The position numbers and the translations under genes are program-made. This document shows positions 11,444 to 26,800 of a stretch of 30,366 nt of DNA, piece by piece. Location: assembly GCA_027604665.1 (NCBI GenBank), contig JADGIZ010000074.1:1-30366 (forward strand). The letters are read 5' to 3'. The notes under the pieces were generated by a model. It searched no databases. It was not told the DNA's origin and worked only from the letters and a program-made list of their open reading frames with translations. Each line of letters starts with the position of its first letter. Position 1 is the first letter of the stretch. This stretch comes from Polyrhizophydium stewartii (taxonomy: Eukaryota > Chytridiomycota > Chytridiomycetes > Rhizophydiales).

Positions 11444-12695
11444 ATGATCGCTCGCTCGCTCGTCCGCGCCGCGCGCCTGTCGCGACAGCCGCTGCCCACC
11501 CCGGTGGGCCTGCGTGCATACGGGTGCGTGCGATTGCGCCACGCATGCAAGGTGCCTGGGCAGCCGCCGCGCGCAAGCGGCGTGCCCGCCACGCCCGCAC
11601 GGGAGACCGAGCCGACTTTCTTTGCAACCGAGATGATGCTGCGGCAAGCGGTGCTGCTGGGCGTTGACGGCCCAGTGCGGCGTCTGTGCGCCGCGTTGCG
11701 TCGCGCGCATGGCAAGCGCAGAGTCGCGCTGCGAGCGCGTGCGCCTGCGCGCGCCGCGGCCGCCGCTGTCGTGGCTGGTCCTGCTGCCGCCGCTGCTTTC
11801 GTCGGCCTGGGAGCTGCTCGTGCCTGCGTGTTGCTGACGCAGACACGTATCGTCGGGCCGGCCCGCACTTGACCCAGCTCGTACATTGGCGAGGGCACGA
11901 ACCCGAAGCTCGCGCCGCCCGAGCGGCCGGAGCCTGTCGCGGCGACAATCTGGACCAACAAGCACGTCAAGCCCGCGCCGCCCAAGGCCGAGTCGAACCC
12001 GGACGATCTCTTTTACCATCCCATGTACACGCCGCCTCTCAAGAACGACACAGCCGTCGGCCCTCTCATCAAGCCGCTGCACTATCCCGAGTTTGATCAG
12101 ATCAAGGACTACTGGACCAAGACCGGCATCGCCTCGTACGACTCGGTCTACGACCTGCGTCTCGAGAAGCCCCAGGACTCGTTCATCGGCGACTACCCCA
12201 AGATCACGCCGCAGTATTCGTGGATTCGCGACCCATATGCGTACTGGGACCAGCAGGGCCGCCGCGACTACGGCGAGATTCTCTACGACCACGACAACTT
12301 CACCGACGCCTGGGGCTTTGGTCCGACTTACCACTGGTACATCCCCGTGGTCACAACCAGCCGCGTCCTTGGCGCCCTTGCGTTTGGCGCCGGGCTGCTG
12401 TATCTCTGGAACCCTGCAGAGCGTGCCTGGATTGTCAGTAGACGTACCTCTCGACATTTTGCTTTTTTGGCTCGCTTTCTGACACTCGTTTTGTCTGCTC
12501 TACTCAGGCCGAGAAGGACTACCCCTACGACGGCCTGCGTGTCGAGCTCGGTGGCGACCCCAACAACGAGGAGGACAACTGGTCTGCGGTGAGGGCGGGC
12601 TGCTTGAAAGTAGCGGGCTGCCAGTGTCCTCGCATGGCCTGCTAACGGTTTGCAACGCACCCATCCCCATCCAGGCGCATGTCTACAAGATCTGA
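11408..12695 (+). CDS. NDUFB8: NADH:ubiquinone oxidoreductase subunit NDUFB8-like (complex I, ASHI)
   Basis: Four exons: 11408-11523, 11878-12433, 12508-12588 and 12675-12695. This gives 257 aa from ATG 11408, or 245 from ATG 11444; the latter starts right at an Arg/Ala/Leu-rich presequence (MIARSLVRAARLSRQPLP) and is the likelier start. The family pattern is IRDPYAYWDQQGRRDYGE, then YDHDNFTDAW, one membrane helix (TTSRVLGALAFGAGLLYLW), and the tail EKDYPYDGLRVELGGDPNNE ending in HVYKI. This lines up with human NDUFB8 RDPWYSWDQPG, YPYNNL, LERGGDP and VHYEI. It is an accessory subunit in the membrane arm of complex I of the inner mitochondrial membrane. Intron 1 (354 nt) is the longest in the window, and nothing else was recognised in it. 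The final exon is only 21 bases. Confidence 0.85.
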
Positions 12696-14891: not shown

Positions 14892-17800
14892 ATGTCCCGA
14901 GACGCCAGCATGCGCCGCAGATCGCCGTAGAAGATCCTGACCTGACCGAGGTCTGTAAGCGCACCGGCCAGACCGCCGCCGTCCGGCGGGCTGCCTTCAC
15001 CGCCCAGGCCAGAGGCCCGCTCTTGCGAATCGCGCCTGGATCCGCAGCTGACGAATCGCCCGCAACGCAAACAAGGCCATCTCACCGTTCGCCAGCAGGT
15101 ACCGCAAGTATCCCAACCTTATTGAGATTTACGTCCCCACGAACCGAACATCGGCGCCATCCAAGTTTACAACAGCTGCCGCCGCCGATCCGCCAGAGCA
15201 GCAGCAACAACAACAGCAGCAGCAGCAGCAGCAGCCGCAGCAGAAGCAGCAGCAACAGCAGCAGCAGCAGCAGCAGCCGCAGGCTCATCACGCCCAGCCA
15301 AAGTCAAATATTGCTTCCCAGAAGCACGCGCCTCGCCGCGGAGGTGTGCGTGAGCGGCCTCAAAAGGAGGAGATTGTCTTTGAGCTTGCCAAGCTCGACA
15401 ATGTGCGCTGCTCTGTTTGTCACTGCCTCCCACGCCTCCCGACTATATGACCTGACTTTTGAGTGGGCGGTGCAGTTTACCCCTTTTATCATTGATCTGG
15501 AGAATGCAAGCTTGCCGCCGCTTCTCAAGCGATTCTCTTGGACTCTCACTGCGCCTTTCAAGGAAGAGCGCTTCCATCGAGCCGTGTCGGATTCGATTGG
15601 AAACAACTACAGCCCCAAGGCAACCGACATTAACATGAAGCAGATGCAGAAGCGCGGCCGTCCGCCTCAGACGGGTAGGCGGGCGCATGCAGAGACTGAA
15701 ATGCTGCGCTCGTTGACCGCCGCGCTTTGCAGACGAGGAGCTAGCAAAGCGACTCAAGACGACCGGCCGGCGTCACGTTGCGGTTCCTGGCGGCATTGCC
15801 GAGGTCGAGAGTCCACCCTTGTCCCCCATCACCCGCATCAAGTCGATTTTCACTGCGTTCGAGACGTTTCGCAAGCCAAAAGAGCCGAGCGCCTTTGATC
15901 TCGATCCGTTTGACCTCGAGCCGCACACAATCGCTCTTCAGATCACGCCAGAGCAGCGTTACTGGTACTACGTCGAGCGCGGCATCCCGGAAAACTCGCT
16001 GCACGGCATCGAGGAGAGCATGCTGCGCACCGTCGAGAGCAAGATTCCGCAACGGCTGTTGCGCGCCGACCACCTGCAAGAAACACTCAAGCAGGTCGTT
16101 GGCGAGGTCAAAAAGGTCCACTCTACGGCCGTCAAGCAGTCGATTGTCGACTACATTCTGCTCGATCCCCTTGAGCAACACAGGCTAATGATCCCGCCGT
16201 TTTTCGCAAACTACGTCCCACGCACGGCGCGCGCACCGGTTCCATGGCACCAGGACCTTATTCAAACTCGAGCATACATTGAGCAGAACCTGTACATCAC
16301 CAATCCGGTCATGCTCGAGCTCCTGCGCATCTACACGCAGTTTGAGAAATGCAAGGTCGTCGACATGAGCGTCTTTACGCCGAGCGTGCTTCCAATGACG
16401 ACCGAGGAGTTCCAAGGCATTCTAAAGAACCAGTGCCTGGCATTCAAGAACAAGATGCTCAACGAGTGAGGGCGCGCCACGTTTGACTGCACTGCGCAGT
16501 GCGAGGCCACTGACGCTTTACCTGGCCGGCATATGCAGGTGGATTCCGACCGTTGCCAACATGTTTTTCCAAACCAAGAGCACCTGGTACTCGATTGCAA
16601 CAGAGTGCGAAGACTCGGACGTAGGATTTCGCCGGCTCGACTCATTCTTCAAGTCCGTGACCGCGGTGCTATCGAATCAGCTTTGGGCTTTGGTTGAAAC
16701 CAGCCTGACCGAATTCGAGTCATTTTTTGAGCAGTTCTCGCAGGCAACTTCAGAGGTGTCGCTCTTTGCCGTGCACCTCAGTATCTCTGGCGCGCAGATT
16801 CGCTTTGACCCGCCGCTCACTGACCTCGAGGTCGTTGTCGTTTCAATCCTTAACGAGATCGTGGCCGTCGTGCGCGAGATTCCGCGCGTGGAGACCAAGC
16901 TGTTCACTACGCTGAACGGCGAGCATCTGTATCTGCCGGCGATTACGCTCGACGACGACCGCATCGCCGAGGGACGCTTCTTTCGCCGAATTGTCGCAAA
17001 GAACACCGTTGCGCCACAAAAGCACCTGATGAGCTACGACAAATACAAGTCGCTGCTAAACCACAAGGCCGAGAAGCGCATCGAGGACTTTTTGCGCGAG
17101 AAGCACGACCTAGACGACTACGAAGTCGAAATCAAGAAGCTCACGCGTCTTATCGACGAGATTGCGCTGTCGCCCTCGATCGTGCGCTTCAGCATGATCT
17201 TTCTCGAGTGCGAGGCACTCAAGGTCGAGCTCACGTCCAAGGCAAATCAGCTCGTGCAAAAGCTTGTCGACCAAGTCGCCGACATGAACCGCAAAAGCAA
17301 CCTCACCATCTGCGAATCGTACGAGAAGATCTCGGCAAAGGCGATGAAGGCCCCCAACGACACAGAGGAGCTCGTCGAGCTCATGAAGTACGTCGAGAAC
17401 GCCAAGACGCGGGATATCATTGTGCTGCGTGAGGAGATCAACAAGGGCAAGAAAAGGCTCGACTTTTTGCTTTCGTACGCCTTTATGAGCGAGGAGGACA
17501 TCAAGCTCAACGGCGTCACGTTCACCTGGCCGACTCGCATTCTGCCGATCTTTGAGCTCTCCAAGAAGCGCATGCTGCAGAAAAAGACAAAGGCGCAGGA
17601 GGACCTCAAGCTCAAAATCGAGGCAACAAACGCAGACCTCGATGAGTGCTACGACAGCGCGACAAAGTTCCAGGTTGGTTTGGGGGATTTGAAAGCGCAC
17701 AGTGCTGTGTGGAGCTGACAAAACGAGGTCCGCCTTCGCAGGACTATGGTATCATGTCGGAGCTGCCCGAGTACATCAAAAAGATCAAGAAGCTCGAAGC

Positions 17801-20800
17801 CAAGCTGGCCGAGCTATCAGACACAATCTCCAAGATCAACGTCGAGGAGGAGCTGCTCGAGTGGGAGAAGACGCCGTTTACAAAGTACCAGCAGACGATC
17901 GAGTTTCTCGACCCCTACAAGAAGCTCTGGGAAACGGCGTCGCAGTTCCAGAGCGACTATGGCCGCTGGATGAACGGTAGCTTCCGCGAACTCAACTCGG
18001 AGGAGGTCGAGGAGTCTGTCAGCAACATGTTCCGAATCATGTTCAAGCTCACCAAGACGTTCTCGGAGCAGCCTGTGCCCAAAAAGGTTGCCGAAAGCGT
18101 CAAAAACAAGCTTGAGAAGTTCAAGTCACACTTGCCGCTCATCACGGTACTGCGCAACCCAGGCCTGCGCGACCGTCACTGGGTCCAGATGGCGCAGATT
18201 GTCGGTCAGCCGATTCTTCCAGACGAATCGACGTCGCTCACCAAGATCCTCGACCTGAACCTAACGCCGTTTCTTTCACAGTTCGAGTCCATCTCGGACG
18301 CCGCGTCCAAGGAGCACTCGCTGCAAAAGACGCTCGCAAAAATGCGCGAGGACTGGGAGCCGCTCGCGTTCAACTGTATTGAGTACAAGGACACCGGCAC
18401 AAAGATCCTCTCTGCGCTCGACGACATCCAAGCGCTCCTCGACGACCAGATTGTCAAAGTGCAGACGATGCGCGGCTCACCTTTTGTCAAGCCGATCGAG
18501 AACGAGGTCAAGGCTTGGGAGACGACCCTGGTCAACGTCCAGGACATCATCGACTCCTGGCTCAAGGTCCAGGCCACGTGGCTGTACCTGGAGCCCATCT
18601 TCACAAGCGAGGACATTATGGCGGCCATGCCTGTGGAGGGCAAAAAGTTCAGGGCCGTTGACAAGACTTGGCGCGACATCATGGCAAACGCCTCGGACAA
18701 CCCAAAGATCCTTGCTGTCGCGGGCACGCCGAATCTGCTTCACCGTCTCAACGAGAGTGACGTACTGCTCGAGGAGATCCAAAAAGGCCTCAACGACTAC
18801 CTCGAGAAGAAGCGTCTGTTCTTCCCGCGTTTCTTTTTCCTCTCCAACGACGAGTTGCTCGAAATCCTTGCCGAGACAAAGGACCCGCTACGAGTGCAGC
18901 CGCACCTCAAAAAGTGCTTTGAGGGCATCGCCAGCCTCGTGTTCCAAGACGGAACCAAGATTATCGCCATGTGCTCGAGCGAGAACGAAAAGGTGCGACT
19001 CAAGGAAGTCATTGAGCCGGCCAACGCCAAGGGAGCGGTTGAAAAGTGGCTTCTGCAGGTCGAAAAAGTCATGCAGACGTCGGTACACCAGCAGATCATG
19101 AACGCCAACAAGGCCTACATGGACACCCCCCGCGAAAAGTGGGTGCTCGAGTGGCCCGGTCAGGTCGTTATTTGCGTGAGCCAGATCTACTGGACCAAGG
19201 AAGTCACCGAAGTGTTGCAAAAAGGAGATGGCCCGACGGGACTCAAACACTACCGAGACATTTGCACGCACCAGCTCGAGGACATTGTCGCCCTCGTGCG
19301 CGGCGAGCTCTCACCAATGGCGCGCATGACTCTTTCTGCCCTCGTTGTCATTGACGTGCATGCGCGCGACGTCGTCAACGATCTGTTCAAGGCGGGCGTC
19401 AGCGTCGAGAGCGACTTTGAGTGGCTCTCGCAGCTGCGGTACTACTGGGAGCACGATGAAGTCAACGTGCGTATGATCAACGCCACGATCAAGTACGGCT
19501 ACGAGTACCTCGGAAACTGCCCGCGCCTCGTCATCACGCCGCTCACGGACCGCTGTTACCGCACCCTTATTGGCGCGCTCGACCTGAACCTTGGTGGAGC
19601 CCCAGAGGGTCCTGCCGGTGAGTTGATATGTCGGCTTTGTGCTTGCCAACGCATTTAAGCTGACCACCGATCCAGGAACGGGCAAGTGCTGGGGCCGCGG
19701 CACGCGGCTGGTCATGCTCGACGGCACAACCAAGGCTGTCGAGGAGATCCGCGAGGGCGACGTGCTCATGGGACCGGACTCGCAGCCGCGCATCGTGCGG
19801 CCCGGCTCCATCACGCGCGGCACCGAGGCCATGTATCGCGTCACGGCGACCGACGATGCCCGCATCTCGTGGACCTGCAACGGCCCGCACATCCTCGTGC
19901 TGCAGCTCAACGACAAGCCCACCGTTGTTGCCGCCGGCGGCCGGTTCTTCGTCAAGACGTGGACGACGCGGCCCGGCACGAGCGCTGTCTCGCAGATCCC
20001 GTGTGCGGATCTCGTTGGCGGTGCATTCTCGACCCGCAACGACGCCGAGGCGTTCATCGAAGAGCTTGTGCGCACCGAATGGCAGCCACTCGTGTTCGAG
20101 TGCACCGTCGTCGATTACCTTGCCATCAAGGACGAGTCGCTGCGGCGGTCACTGGCCATGTTCCAGCCGCCGCTGATCGAGTGGCCGTCGCCGGCCGTCT
20201 CGCTCGCTGCGAGGATCAGCGAGATGCACGGCGCAGAGGCGTCGTTCACCATGGTCGCCCAGATTGCATGGGCCATCGGTGCATGGCTGGCGCTGAGCAC
20301 TGGCTCCGGTTGCGTTGAGACTTGTGAGCAAGTGCGCTCGGAGTTTGACCGCATCGCGGCGATGCTCGGCGAGGGCGTGTCAGGGAAGTGTGGATCGGCA
20401 TTCTCGGCATTGATCGGGTCGTACGGACTGACCCAGGCCACGCACATCCCGGGCGAATTGATGACCGAGTGCCCGACGGTACGCCGTGCGCTTCTGGCCG
20501 GACTTGTCGACTGCCGCGGACGCATTGGCGAGGACGGCAGCTGCACGATCACATCTGCATCGGCAGGCATCCTGACTGATGCAGCAAGCCTGGCTCGCGG
20601 CCTCGGCCTCGTCGTCGGAAAGTCGCACGGGCATGCATCCATCGCTGTCTGCGGCGTTGGCCTCACGGCTGTTGCCGAGCACATTGGGACCGACGACAAG
20701 CGCCGCGCTGTCGCTGAGCTTGCATCGAGCGCACAGAGCACCGACTCGTGCTTTGGCTTCACGATCGAGTGCGTTGGAGTCGACGACCACTTTGGCTTCT

Positions 20801-23800
20801 CGCTCGACGGCCGCGACGGCCGCTGCCTGCTCCAGGACTACACCGTGACGCACAACACCGAGTCCGTCAAGGATCTCGCCAAGGCGATCGCCAAGGCGTG
20901 TGTTGTGTTCAACTGCTCGGACGGCCTTGACTACATTGCCATGGGCAAGTTCTTCAAGGGCTTGGCTTCTTCGGGAGCGTGGGCGTGCTTTGACGAGTTC
21001 AACCGCATCGACCTCGAGGTGCTATCGGTCGTTGCGCAGCAGATACTGACGATTCAGCGGGCAGTTGTGGCCAAGATGGAAAAGTTTGTTTTTGAGGGCA
21101 CGACCATTTCACTCAACCGCGGTTGCTCGGTCTTTATCACCATGAACCCGGGATACGCCGGTCGCTCTGAGCTGCCCGACAACCTCAAGGCACTGTTCCG
21201 CCCGGTGGCGATGATGGTGCCCGACTACACACTAATTGCCGAGATCTCGCTGTACTCGTTTGGCTTTGTCGAAGCTCGCACGCTGGCTCGAAAGATCGTT
21301 GCAACATACAAACTGTGTTCGGAGCAGCTCTCGTCGCAGGATCACTACGACTACGGCATGCGCGCAGTCAAGTCGGTGCTGACGGCTGCGGGCAATCTCA
21401 AGCTCAAGTATCCTGACGAGAATGAGCACATTATCATGCTTCGATCGATCAACGACGTCAATTTGGCAAAGTTCTTATCGCAGGACATCCCGCTCTTTAA
21501 AGCCATCACAGCCGACCTCTTCCCCAAGGTGGTGCTGCCGACGCCTGACTATCGCAACCTCATGATCAGCATCCATGAGTACATGGAGCGGTCCAACCTG
21601 CAGGCCGTCGACTCGGCGCTTGAGAAGATCATGCAAACATACGAGATGATGCAAGTTAGGCACGGATACATGCTTGTCGGCATGCCGTGGTCGGGGAAGA
21701 CCACGGCCTATCGCGCGCTCGCGGCTGCTCTGTCGGACATGTTTGACCGCGCGCTCAACGAGAAAAAGGTCGAGTACAAGGTCATCAATCCAAAGTCGAT
21801 TACCATGGGGCAACTCTACGGCCAGTTTGATCCTGTCACGCACGAGTGGACCGACGGTGTGCTGGCGAACACGTTCCGATCGTTTGCGCAGCAGGGCACA
21901 GCCGAGCGCAAGTGGATAATATTCGATGGCCCTGTCGACGCCATTTGGATCGAGAACATGAACACGGTGCTTGACGACAACAAGAAGCTGTGTCTCACGA
22001 GCGGCGAGATCATGTCGATGACGAGCACCATGAGCATCCAGTTTGAAGTCTCGGATCTCGCCGTAGCCTCGCCAGCAACTGTGTCGCGTTGCGGAATGAT
22101 CTACATGGAGCCAGATTCGCTCGGCTGGCGGCCCATCATGCAGTCGTGGCTCAATACTCTCCCGCAGGGCGTCAAAGGAGAGCATCGGCTGCTGATTGCC
22201 ACTCTCTTTGACTGGGTCGTACCCGCGTGCATCGAGTTTGTTTCCAACCAGTGCCGCGAAGTCGTGGGTACATCGACCATCAACATGGCTGTGGCACTCA
22301 TGACCCTCATCACCTGCCAGCTTGACGACTTTGCTGCCGACCAAAAGAGCGTCGACGAGATCCCTGCAAACGTGCAGACTGTGTGGATCGTCTCGTTCTT
22401 CGTTTTTGGCTGCATCTGGTCACTCGGCGGCACACTCGACGGCCGGTCTCGCAAAAAGTTTGACACATTCTTCCGTGGCGTCATTGCCGGCAACAACAAG
22501 GACTTTCCGCCGCCAGAAAAGTTCAAGCTAGACAAGCCTCTGCCTGACGCAGGCCTCGTGTATGACTACATGTACGACAAAGACAAGAAGTCGGGCGGAA
22601 ACTGGCGGCTGTGGACCGAGACCATCGAAAAGTTTGATATTCCCCCAAAGACCAAGTTCAACAGCATCACGGTCCCGACTGTGGACACGGCGCGATACAG
22701 CTTCCTGCTCGACTTGATGCTGCGGCACAACAAGCAGTGCTTGCTCGTTGGGCCGACCGGCACAGGAAAGAGCGTCTATGTCAACAGCAAGCTCCTGAAC
22801 GGGCTTCCAAAGGAAAGCTACGTGCCCGTGTTCATTAACTTTTCCGCGCAGACTTCAGCAAACCAGACGCAGGAAATTATTTTGAGCAAGCTGGACAAGC
22901 GGCGGCGCGGCGTCTTTGGCCCGCCCCACGGCCTCAAGAGCGTCATTTTCGTCGACGATCTCAACATGCCGGCACGCGAAAAGTACGGCGCACAGCCGCC
23001 GATTGAGCTGCTCCGCCAGTGGATGGATCACGGCCAGTGGTACGACCTCAAGGACACGAGCTCGATGCAGCTGGTCGACATCCAGTTTGTCGCTGCCATG
23101 GGCCCTCCGGGTGGCGGCCGCAACCCAATCACAAACCGATTCCTTCGGCACTTTAACACCTTTTCGATTGCCGAGTTTGACGACTCGACGATGAAGCATA
23201 TCTTCACGACCATTGTCGAGTGGCACTTTGCCTCCAACAACTTTGCGGCCGCAATCTTGGGCACCAAGTCGCAGCTCGTGTGCGCAATTCTGGATGTATA
23301 CCAGGGTAAGGAAATCGAGCTTTACATTGCGTAATGTGCGCTGACGCTTCGACGGCAGGGGCCATCGCAAGCCTACTTCCAACTCCGGCCAAGTCGCACT
23401 ACGTCTTCAACCTGCGCGACTTTGCACGTGTAGTTCAGGGTGTCTTGCTGGCGACCCCCGACAAGTTCAACGAAACCCCAAAGATTGTGCGGCTGTGGTG
23501 CCACGAGGTCTATCGCGTGTTCTACGACCGCCTTGTCGACGATTCGGATCGAAGTTGGTTCTTCTCGACCATCAAGGACGTCGCGGCGCGCAACTTCAAC
23601 ATCAAGTTTGATGAAGTCTTTGCGCATCTCGACTCAAACAAGGACGGCAAGGTTGATGACGACGACTTGCGCAGCCTCATGTTCGGCGACTACATTTTGC
23701 CCGACGCGGCGGTGCGCATCTACGACGAGGTCGTCAACGTGGCCAAGGTCGGCGACGTCATCAAGGGACGGCTCGACGAGTACAACCAAATGTCAAAGGC

Positions 23801-26800
23801 ACCCATGAACCTCGTCATCTTCCGCTTTGCCGTCGAGCACGTTTCCCGCATCAGCCGTATCCTCAAGCAGCCCGCGGGGCACGCATTGCTCGTCGGAGTC
23901 GGAGGCAGCGGCCGCCAGTCCCTCACGCGGCTGGCGGCGTTTATGGCCGACTACCTCCTTTTCCAGGTTGAGATATCCAAGTCGTACGGACGCAACGAAT
24001 GGCGCGACGATCTCAAAAAGTTCCTCATCAAGGCTGGCGCCGAGGGCAAGCCTGGCGTCTTTTTATTTAGCGACACACAGATCAAGCAGGAGTCTTTCCT
24101 GGAGGACATCAACAACATGCTCAACACTGGCGAGGTTCCAAACATTTTCGCAATGGACGAGAAGGCGGCCGTGATCGAGCAGGTCAGGAACGCACTGACC
24201 AAAGACAATCCCAAGATGGACGCATCCCCGGCGGCGCTCTACAACGCATTTATCTCGCGATGCAAGGAGAACCTGCACATTGTGCTCTGCATGAGCCCCA
24301 TTGGCGACGCGTTCCGGAACCGCCTGCGCATGTTTCCAAGTCTGGTCAACTGCTGCACAATCGACTGGTTCCAAGTCTGGCCCGAGGATGCTCTCGAGAT
24401 TGTCGCGACCAAGTTCCTCGAAGAGGTTGAGCTCACGCCCGAGGTTCGCAAGAGCGTCGTCGTCATGTGCAAAGAGTTCCACACGGGCACGCGCCTACTC
24501 AGCCAGCGCTTTTATGAGGCACTTCGGCGGCACAACTATGTCACGCCAACGTCGTACCTTGAGCTTATCCAGACGTACAAACAGCTGCTCACGGCCAAGC
24601 GCAAAGAGATCAATGCTCTCAAGATGCGGTACGAGGTTGGGCTCGATCAGCTCGCGAGCGCAGCGTCGCAAGTCGGCACCATGCAAATCGAGCTTAACGA
24701 CCTTCAGCCGCAGCTAATTGCGACGCAAAAAGAGACGGACAAGATTATGGAGGTCATTCAGCGCGAGAGCGTCGAAGTCGAAAAGAAACGCGAGCTCGTC
24801 AAGATTGACGAGGAGATGGCAAATCGCAAAGCCGGCGAGGCTAAGGCCATGAAGGACGAGTGCGAAGCAGACCTGGCCGAGGCGCTGCCTGCGCTCGAAG
24901 CTGCACTCGAAGCCCTTGACACACTCAAGCCCCAGGACATTACAGTCGTCAAGTCCATGAAGAACCCGCCTGGCGCCGTGAAGTTGGTCATGGAGGCCAT
25001 TTGCATCATGAAGGGTATCAAACCCTCGCGCATCAAGGATCCCGGTGGCAGCGGAAAGATGGTCGATGACTACTGGGGACCAGCGCAAAAGATGCTCGGA
25101 GACTCGCACTTTCTCCAGGGCCTGCGCAGTTACGACAAGGACAACATTGACCCCAACATCATTGCAAAGATCCGCAAGACGTACATCCCGAACCCGGACT
25201 TTGACCCCAATATCGTCAAGAACTCGTCATCCGCTGCAGAGGGCCTGTGCAAGTGGGTGCGCGCGCTCGACAAGTACGAGGTTGTTGCCAAGGTTGTCGG
25301 GCCAAAGAAAGAGGCTCTCGGCAAGGCCGAGGCCGAGCTCGCGGTTGAGATGGCCAAACTCAACGCCAAGCGCGCTGAGCTGCAAGAGGTCGAAGACAAG
25401 ATGGCCAAGCTGCAGGCGGGCTTTAAGGAAATGACCGAGAAAAAGGCCGATCTCGAGCGCCAGGTCGACATGGTCGGGAAGAAGCTCGTGCGCGCGGAAA
25501 AGCTCATTGGTGGTCTCGGCGGCGAAAAGGACCGCTGGAGCGAGGCGGCTCGGTCGCTAACGATCACGTACACGAATCTTACGGGTGATGTTTTGATTGC
25601 TTCGGCCGTGATTGCATACCTCGGCGCCTTTACGCTTGGCTACCGCAACTCGATTCTTGCCGAGTGGAACCAAAAGTGCTTTGACCAAAAGATTCCGTGC
25701 TCGGCAACATTCTCGCTTATTTCGACGCTCGGCGATCCCATCCAGATCCGCGCATGGAGTCTCGCCGGCCTGCCCAACGACTCTTTCTCGTGCGATAATG
25801 GCATCGTCTCAACCAAGGCGCGCCGCTGGCCCCTCTTTATCGATCCACAGGGCCAGGCCAACAAGTGGGTCAAGAACATGGAGAAGCAGAACCGCCTGAT
25901 TGTAATCAAGCTCTCGGATGCGGACTATGTGCGCAACCTCGAGAACGCAATCCAGTTTGGCACGCCCGTGCTGCTTGAGAACATTGGAGAAGAAGTCGAC
26001 TCGGTGCTCGAGCCGCTCCTGACCAAGCAGATCTTTAAGCAAAGCGGCGTCATGTGTATACGCCTTGGAGAGGCAATCATCGAGTACTCGCCCGAATTCC
26101 GGTTCTACATCACAACAAAGCTGCGCAACCCGCACTATCTGCCAGAGCTTTCGACCAAGGTCACGATAGTCAACTTTATGATTACGCCTGACGGCCTCGA
26201 AGACCAACTTCTCGGAATCGTGGCGGCAAAAGAGCGTCCCGAGCTCGAGGAAGAAAAGAACAAGCTCGTACTCGCGTCGGCAAACAACAAAAAGCAGCTC
26301 AAGGAGATTGAAGACAAGATTCTGGCCATCCTCAGCTCGAGCCAAGGCAATCTACTTGAAGACGAATCAGCAATCACGGCGCTGACGAGCTCCAAGATTC
26401 TCTCGGACGAGATCGCACAGAAGCAAATGATTGCCGAGGAGACTGAGAAGCAGATTGATATCACGCGTCAGGGGTATCGTCCAATTGCATTCCATTCGTC
26501 GATTCTGTTTTTCGTCATAGCCGAGATGGCCAATGTGCGTCATGGACGTGACGACGCACAAACAGTTGATTGGAAGTGCTGACTAGGGCCACGCAGATCG
26601 AGCCAATGTACCAGTACTCACTCGGCTGGTTCATCAACCTCTTCCTCCAGTCAATTGCTGATTCGGAAAAGTCGGATGTGCTGGCCAAGCGTCTCGACAA
26701 CTTGCGTTCGCATTTTACATACTCACTCTACTGCAACGTGTGCCGGTCGCTGTTCAAGAAGGACAAGCTTCTGTTTTCGTTTATCCTGTGCATCGGCATC

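Follow-up and report, generated by a model that had tools for sequence, protein, structure and literature searches.

An intron and an intein side by side in the P-loops of axonemal dynein heavy chains of a chytrid fungus, and their probable spread as a cassette

We analyzed a stretch of 30,366 nucleotides from the chytrid Polyrhizophydium stewartii (contig JADGIZ010000074.1 of assembly GCA_027604665.1, positions 1 to 30,366), hereafter the window, in which the AAA1 ATP-binding loop of a predicted axonemal dynein heavy chain is interrupted twice. Within the eight residues GPAGTGKT, a 58-nucleotide (nt) intron of spliceosomal type lies in the GPAG half and an intein of 390 residues follows GK. 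Inserts of the same composition (intron, codons for TGK, intein) were found in seven of the nine axonemal dyneins recognized in the assembly. The intron would be removed from RNA, the intein is predicted to excise itself from the protein, and both have likely spread through the dynein genes as a cassette by gene conversion; we give this reading a probability of about 0.85. More than the dynein intein itself, the larger result is this intron-intein cassette shared by several paralogues.

Nuclear inteins are rare, and eight copies in the dyneins of one chytrid form a natural system in which occupied and empty paralogues occur side by side. Questions that become testable are the way inteins reach new genes, the gain of spliceosomal introns and whether a flagellum can be assembled if seven of its motors each have to self-splice; the seven AAA1 copies also make it possible to tell splicing, endonuclease decay and gene conversion apart. 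If the cassette is a composite selfish element, the need of an intein for conserved P-loops would have served as a vehicle for an intron, and the AAA2 loop of a DNAH5-type gene, where the eighth copy lies, would display a new and directly visible route of spliceosomal intron gain.

The window intein and its host gene

The features of the window are listed below.

17646..19617, plus strand: host dynein exon with the DHC_N2 linker region and the start of AAA1, ending in base 1 of the second Gly codon of GPAG (open frame, Pfam); 17646 is the limit of the open frame and not a mapped exon start
19608..19617, plus strand: first half of Walker A, GPA and the first base of G (sequence)
19618..19675, plus strand: 58-nt spliceosomal-type intron, GT...AG, phase 1, with an in-frame stop if retained (sequence, junction reading)
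19676..19686, plus strand: 11 nt with the remainder of G and the T-G-K of Walker A, part of the cassette (sequence)
19687..20856, plus strand: intein of 390 residues, Cys1 to His389-Asn390 (sequence, Pfam, PDB matches)
19987..20706, plus strand: degenerate homing-endonuclease part of LAGLIDADG type, residues 101-340, an approximate division used for selection analysis by part (Pfam Hom_end, alignment with viral relatives)
20293..20295, plus strand: intein codon 203, Leu in place of the block C LAGLIDADG aspartate (alignment with viral relatives)
20491..20520, plus strand: endonuclease block E, Asp275 kept and the second Asp (position 277) lost (alignment)
20857..23305, plus strand: host dynein exon from Thr+1 (TES...), with the remaining AAA1, AAA2 and AAA3 (AAA_6, AAA_7; PDB matches DNAH3, DNAH12, DNAH7)
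23359..26579, plus strand: following host exon region with AAA4, stalk and AAA5 (AAA_8, MT, AAA_9; junction read); 26579 is the limit of the open frame

The frame at 19687-20856 is stop-free, starts with Cys, ends with His-Asn and is directly followed by Thr, exactly where an initial annotation, made from the letters of the DNA alone, had placed a 390-codon intein in a dynein. Database comparisons bore this identification out: Pfam Hom_end_hint spans residues 1-389 (62.4 bits, cut-off 32.1) and Hom_end residues 253-326 (33.5 bits, cut-off 21.1), the top PDB sequence matches are the PI-SceI, VMA1 and Prp8 inteins, and the HINT fold is present; a search of NCBIfam gave 0 families. The same annotation had listed blocks A to G in order. 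Of these, A, B, F and G are indeed intact, whereas the blocks of the endonuclease have degenerated, with Leu203 in place of the block C Asp.

Cys1, Thr63, Asn65, His68, His389, Asn390 and Thr+1 are kept in all eight copies found in the assembly, and each copy thus has the sequence marks of an intein (Cys1, block B His, His-Asn and Thr+1). Eight open copies place the intein far beyond chance. Self-excision and ligation of the exteins are predicted from these intact residues, and the importance of splicing for motility is predicted from the essential role of AAA1, which is general knowledge. Whether 19687-20856 could itself be a spliced intron had been raised early; removal as a GT-AG intron is ruled out because the ends are TGC...AAC and TGK is coded solely upstream.

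The host is, by its domains and nearest relatives, an axonemal dynein heavy chain, and the initial placement of the intein in the AAA1 Walker A motif at GK^T stood. The nearest solved relatives are axonemal (DNAH3, DNAH12 and DNAH7 are the best-labelled PDB matches), and DHC_N2 (507.8 bits on the upstream exon), AAA1-5 and the stalk are present. The AAA_6 domain is split by the intein, with model positions 1-41 upstream and 43-327 downstream, and the downstream frame carries AAA_6, AAA_7 and lid domains.

The initial annotation had described the intein as splitting GPAGTGK from the residues after it. The intein does follow GK, but GPAGTGK is not contiguous in the DNA, as the 58-nt intron lies within it. 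Joining 19617 to 19676 yields GPAGTGK in an open frame. Retention would shift the frame, since 58 is not divisible by three, and bring in an in-frame stop, the upstream frame ending at 19658. With GT-AG ends and restoration of the host frame on removal, the segment has the features expected of a spliceosomal intron. Besides this co-travelling intron, the present analysis adds to the initial annotation seven more intein copies, the decay of the endonuclease and inteins at the same site in Entrophospora.

Eight copies and their common ancestry

The assembly searched comprises 12.86 Mb in 690 contigs (the window is contig C74) and is possibly incomplete. Among matches above 97%, four nr proteins of P. 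stewartii agree with its loci at 97-100% identity across many exons, which points to this species or an extremely close one. A profile search marked 13 heavy-chain loci by DHC_N2. Based on PDB matches, C74 is DNAH3/7/12-like, C59 is of DNAH5 type, C169 of DNAH9/17, C27 of DNAH10 and C19 of DNAH2, and C267 and C123 are cytoplasmic dyneins 1 and 2. Types taken from names in nr are DNAH7-like for C106 and C15, DNAH1 for C246 and DNAH6 for C49; C7 and C45 are divergent loci without an assigned type. The top PDB row for C59 was a 4730-residue chain labelled CFAP57, with DNAH5 next; from its length and match, this chain was taken for a mislabelled heavy chain.

A search with the window intein detected eight copies, all stop-free, and a Pfam search gave the same eight. 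Seven are in AAA1 (C74, C106, C59, C169, C246, C15 and C49), where the other six are 89-93% identical to the window intein. The eighth lies in the AAA2 loop of C59 (GPTG/TGK|TKCINALL) and is 43% identical. No intein was detected in C27, C19, C267, C123, C7 or C45 in this search, so that occupancy is seven of nine recognized axonemal dyneins versus none of two cytoplasmic ones. At the AAA1 loop, C123, C267 and C19 have neither intron nor intein, and C27 carries an intron that matches in position and phase. In the 10 other recognized dyneins, the AAA2 loop is uninterrupted through GK[TS]. In the C169 AAA2 loop (L051 5966), the frame apparently leaves the dynein right after GNSGTGKS, as if an intron started inside the P-loop. 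Four nr proteins, probably derived from the same assembly, retain the intein in the protein, one of them from residue 10 on only.

The 58-nt intron precedes all eight inteins at an identical distance, and the 11-nt piece between them differs by at most 1 nt in any pair of copies. Pairwise identity is 78-97% among the eight introns and 91-96% among the AAA1 inteins as DNA; the 120-nt exon flanks on each side share 56-83% of positions among AAA1 copies but, being unrelated, 29-38% between AAA1 and AAA2. A 70-nt intron query matched assembly DNA at the eight intein sites and nowhere else, in a search that skipped very common words. Among the seven AAA1 copies, the mean intron distance is 0.166 (0.072-0.266) and the mean synonymous divergence (dS) of the intein 0.171, and the synonymous difference of flanking exons is 0.60, near saturation. 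Because intron and intein have diverged equally, and less than the exons, they share a last common ancestor, by insertion or exchange, that is far younger than the dynein paralogues; the equal divergence also makes it likely that they spread as one mobile unit. In BLAST comparisons among 11 loci, only six of 200 matches that did not touch the cassette in both partners reached 85% identity, the longest of the six being 68 nt.

Two other histories were considered and rejected. Vertical descent from before the split of the paralogues without exchange is ruled out by the intein dS of 0.171 against the exon synonymous difference of 0.60. Introner elements are near-identical spliceosomal introns that multiply within one genome; an intron of this type would have many dispersed copies in unrelated genes, unlike the eight matches found here, each tied to an intein, with common words skipped.

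The AAA2 copy bears directly on movement. Its intron is 83-97% identical to the other introns (97% to that of C169), and the first 75 bases of its intein are 93-97% identical, after which similarity fades to about half over most of the intein. Four reported BLAST matches between the AAA2 and AAA1 copies begin 10-12 nt upstream of the intron, in the GPxG codons, and are 296-299 nt long. Given that the exons of the two loops are unrelated, the intron was carried into, or replaced at, the AAA2 loop along with the 5′ part of an intein, and this copy is a direct sign of movement to a different loop.

Exchange between copies was assessed over the cassette, in which 249 of 1239 positions are variable. 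Incompatibility with a single tree was observed for 54.8% of two-state informative site pairs, compared with 43.5% (standard deviation 4.0, highest 53.1%) in simulations on the best tree without recombination, none of 200 reaching the observed value. Tree splits are weakly supported (34-79%). Gene conversion between the paralogues appears moderately supported by these patterns.

Position 203 is Leu in all seven AAA1 copies and Arg in the AAA2 copy, versus Asp in 49 of 50 viral relatives, and Asp275 of block E is present in 8/8 copies and 50/50 viral relatives. Double-strand cleavage by LAGLIDADG enzymes requires both acidic residues. None of the eight copies has the two, and none is predicted to be active in homing. 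As Leu is common to all seven AAA1 copies, loss of the block C Asp probably predates their ancestor, unless conversion spread the Leu. The mean ratio of nonsynonymous to synonymous substitution (dN/dS) of the seven AAA1 inteins is 0.29; by part, it is lowest in the N-terminal splicing part (0.14) and reaches 0.32 in the endonuclease and 0.33 in the C-terminal part. On these values, purifying selection is strongest on the N-terminal splicing part.

Proposed mechanism and competing explanations

We propose that the spliceosome removes the 58-nt intron and restores GPAG-TGK, and that translation then yields a precursor in which Walker A is interrupted between Lys and Thr. The acyl group would be passed on by Cys1 and Thr+1, Asn390 would cyclise and Lys would be joined to Thr. 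This ligation would let AAA1 bind ATP, and the ligated peptide would span GPAGTGKTESVK. Spread would start with a break in or near an empty P-loop, or with ordinary ectopic recombination, repaired from an occupied paralogue. Such repair would need homology on both sides, which downstream starts at Thr; upstream, pairing would start in the exon before the intron. The intron would be copied along with the intein because the 11 bp between them are too short and the nearest long homology lies beyond the intron. That upstream pairing starts in the exon would also account for the cassette boundary at the 5′ splice site in 8/8 copies. A live LAGLIDADG endonuclease probably began the spread, its block C aspartate being lost by the common ancestor of the seven AAA1 copies; with the endonuclease apparently dead in all copies, any break-driven step would today proceed without a cutter supplied by the cassette itself. 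The cassette may have arisen at a site with a resident intron like that of C27, whose barely similar intron without an intein suggests that introns can reside at the AAA1 loop independently.

Several points weigh against this reading. At the DNAH10-type locus C27, the same place holds an intron but no intein. Both RNA splicing and protein splicing are predicted steps, and four of the seven occupied host types rest on automatic names. The skipping of common words leaves uniqueness of the intron unproven, and similarity of the AAA2 copy to the AAA1 copies declines across about 200 nt without a sharp break. With regard to conversion, the simulations differ from the data in other ways (306 variable sites on average versus 249; 63 two-state informative sites versus 86). 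Long runs of shared variants reach p<0.05 in only 5/21 pairs and in one pair after correction for 21 tests (C74/C106, a run of 34 sites, 0/2000 permutations), and the near-against-far incompatibility test was not significant (p 0.08). The endonuclease appears dead in all copies, and the C-terminal part of the intein (0.33) is under no tighter constraint than the endonuclease part (0.32).

We lean slightly toward viewing the cassette as a composite selfish element, in which intron and intein, 11 bp apart, spread as a unit through a motor gene family and are erased in RNA and then in protein. It seems doubtful that the intron is instead an old resident of the P-loop, beside which the intein arrived, with the likeness of introns and of inteins due to concerted evolution and no movement of the intron in an element. 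Such residence fits the intron of C27, which has the same position and phase, no intein and a weak similarity to the cassette intron (p 0.01, 1000 shuffles); as it lacks an intein, the intron position may predate the cassette. Three Entrophospora gene models that lack residues before TGK, as if an intron ended there, point the same way, albeit the models are unreliable. However, C123, C267 and C19 have neither insert, and the same intron is found at a different site, the AAA2 loop of C59; this loop is uninterrupted in the 10 other recognized dyneins. These observations argue that the intron moved at least once.

Classical homing, in which a live LAGLIDADG endonuclease inserted each copy into the paralogous P-loops and was lost later, is also unlikely. 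Viral P-loop inteins do keep both aspartates (D203 in 49/50, D275 in 50/50), and an endonuclease with intact-looking motifs on contig C180 could act in trans. Against it, Leu203 in all seven AAA1 copies implies that their ancestor, at about 0.17 synonymous divergence, probably already lacked the Asp, barring parallel loss or conversion. The C180 stretch (12397-12636, minus strand; L142) lies outside dyneins in an open frame of 1266 residues with the motifs VGLYCGD... and FAGLVDSDG. From these motifs, it is probably another intein and perhaps a still active cutter.

We consider it very improbable that conditional splicing serves as a maturation check that keeps zoospore motors dead until a signal triggers exit of the intein. 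The presence of inteins in 7/9 recognized axonemal and 0/2 cytoplasmic dyneins would suit such a check, but this contrast is weak and selfish spread among genes of one life stage predicts the same. Gating of motility by temperature, redox state or metals, as the initial annotation suggested, may occur but gained no support here. It is scarcely credible that the inserts leave the mRNA as unusual introns or reflect an assembly artefact: some dynein gene models drop part of the P-loop (e.g., P0004), but the ends are TGC...AAC instead of GT-AG, 8/8 copies are open, mean dN/dS is 0.29 in the seven AAA1 copies, and four nr proteins, though probably from the same assembly, keep the intein.

Relatives elsewhere and known systems

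A search of viral contigs with the eight-copy alignment gave at least 600 pattern matches, of which 423 were confirmed and 80 kept; 50 were compared and 42 used in a structure alignment. Insertion follows Lys and precedes Thr, Ser or Val in 39 of the 50, which agrees with the early suggestion that GK^T is a preferred intein site in P-loops; 10 sit one step further upstream, ahead of TGK or SGK, and one is elsewhere. The family looks like a P-loop specialist. The ten earlier insertions (L065, L081, L083, L085, L091, L093, L102, L105, L108 and L110) belong to the same family and mark a second hot spot adjoining the dynein intron position. Among the matches listed, identity to viral relatives is about 23-34%, with one of 45% over its best segment.

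P0001 searched against viral contigs gave 33 pattern matches with none confirmed, and the eight-copy alignment against prokaryote genomes gave 126 with none confirmed. Protein searches yielded 12 matches among 7975 scored candidates, 5 among 1541 and 7 among 1389; the first and third scored those sharing most words, and relatives in other chytrids could be missed. A recent viral or prokaryotic origin was rejected, as no close relative was found in the viral-contig, prokaryote and protein searches.

Outside P. stewartii, dynein inteins were found only in Entrophospora, a genus of arbuscular mycorrhizal fungi without flagella (P0009, P0014 and P0015; 26-28% identical). They occupy the same dynein site, with TGK| in all three and |TESVKALG read in P0009, which also lacks the block C Asp, as do the P. 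stewartii inteins. Unlike the latter, their host has DHC_N1 and there is no sign of spread among paralogues. In all three gene models, the residues immediately upstream of TGK are missing, as would fit an intron with its end at that point. They read LGG-S/R-TGK, and an intron at this site was not counted as shown; the models are unreliable because those of P0014 and P0015 also omit the C terminus of the intein and the host residues that directly follow.

The initial annotation knew of no intein in a dynein. This holds for description: in the portions seen of the open-licence literature on inteins with dynein, nuclear genomes, chytrids, Glomeromycotina and co-conversion, no dynein intein is described. 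Dynein has 0 mentions in the portions seen of the main text of PMC5784728, of PMC2814812 and of PMC8778642, as does intein in those of PMC13358043 on the fungal flagellum. It does not hold for occurrence, since Entrophospora entries in nr carry inteins at the same site; nr entries already hold several dynein inteins, unremarked.

Known systems resemble the present one only in part. PI-SceI, the VMA1 intein of Saccharomyces, is an active endonuclease in one gene. The window intein is about 20% identical to it and differs in lacking an expected catalytic Asp, in occurring in seven paralogues and in lying beside an intron. The Prp8 inteins of Cryptococcus are likewise nuclear and fungal, and the splicing domain superposes at 1.5 Å over 141 residues; unlike the dynein inteins, they are small, endonuclease-free, single-copy and located in a spliceosome gene. 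Other P-loop inteins (RecQ-like P0006, midasin-like P0010, AAA protein P0011 and those of viral contigs) share insertion at GK|T or before TGK/SGK and the TVTHN end, but the viral ones have a mostly intact endonuclease.

Inteins of RNA polymerase subunits are similarly nuclear and occupy several conserved sites, in chytrids as well, in the part of PMC1635734 seen. There, ectopic movement of inteins was argued to be very rare for want of flanking homology (Goodwin 2006, PMC1635734); the dyneins differ in that a multigene family with one shared loop removes this obstacle. Inteins favour conserved sites and spliceosomal introns do not, according to the sections seen of PMC2814812. In the excerpt seen of Green 2018 (PMC5784728), the nuclear hosts tabulated as most common are Prp8, VMA1, polymerase subunits, ThrRS, GLT, CHS and IF2/eIF5B; a single genome can hold several inteins, as in Fusarium fujikuroi, which has three.

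Some minor observations concern other intein-like sequences. On contig C356 (10922-11272, minus strand), an open frame of 2092 residues has a weak Intein_splicing match (24.9 bits, below the cut-off of 35.8). P0012, a Prp8-like protein, contains several intein-like stretches, with four plausible HN-ended candidates by motif. Residues 526-969 of P0010, a protein with midasin-type domains, form an intein in the P-loop GSPGVGK|C...HN|V.

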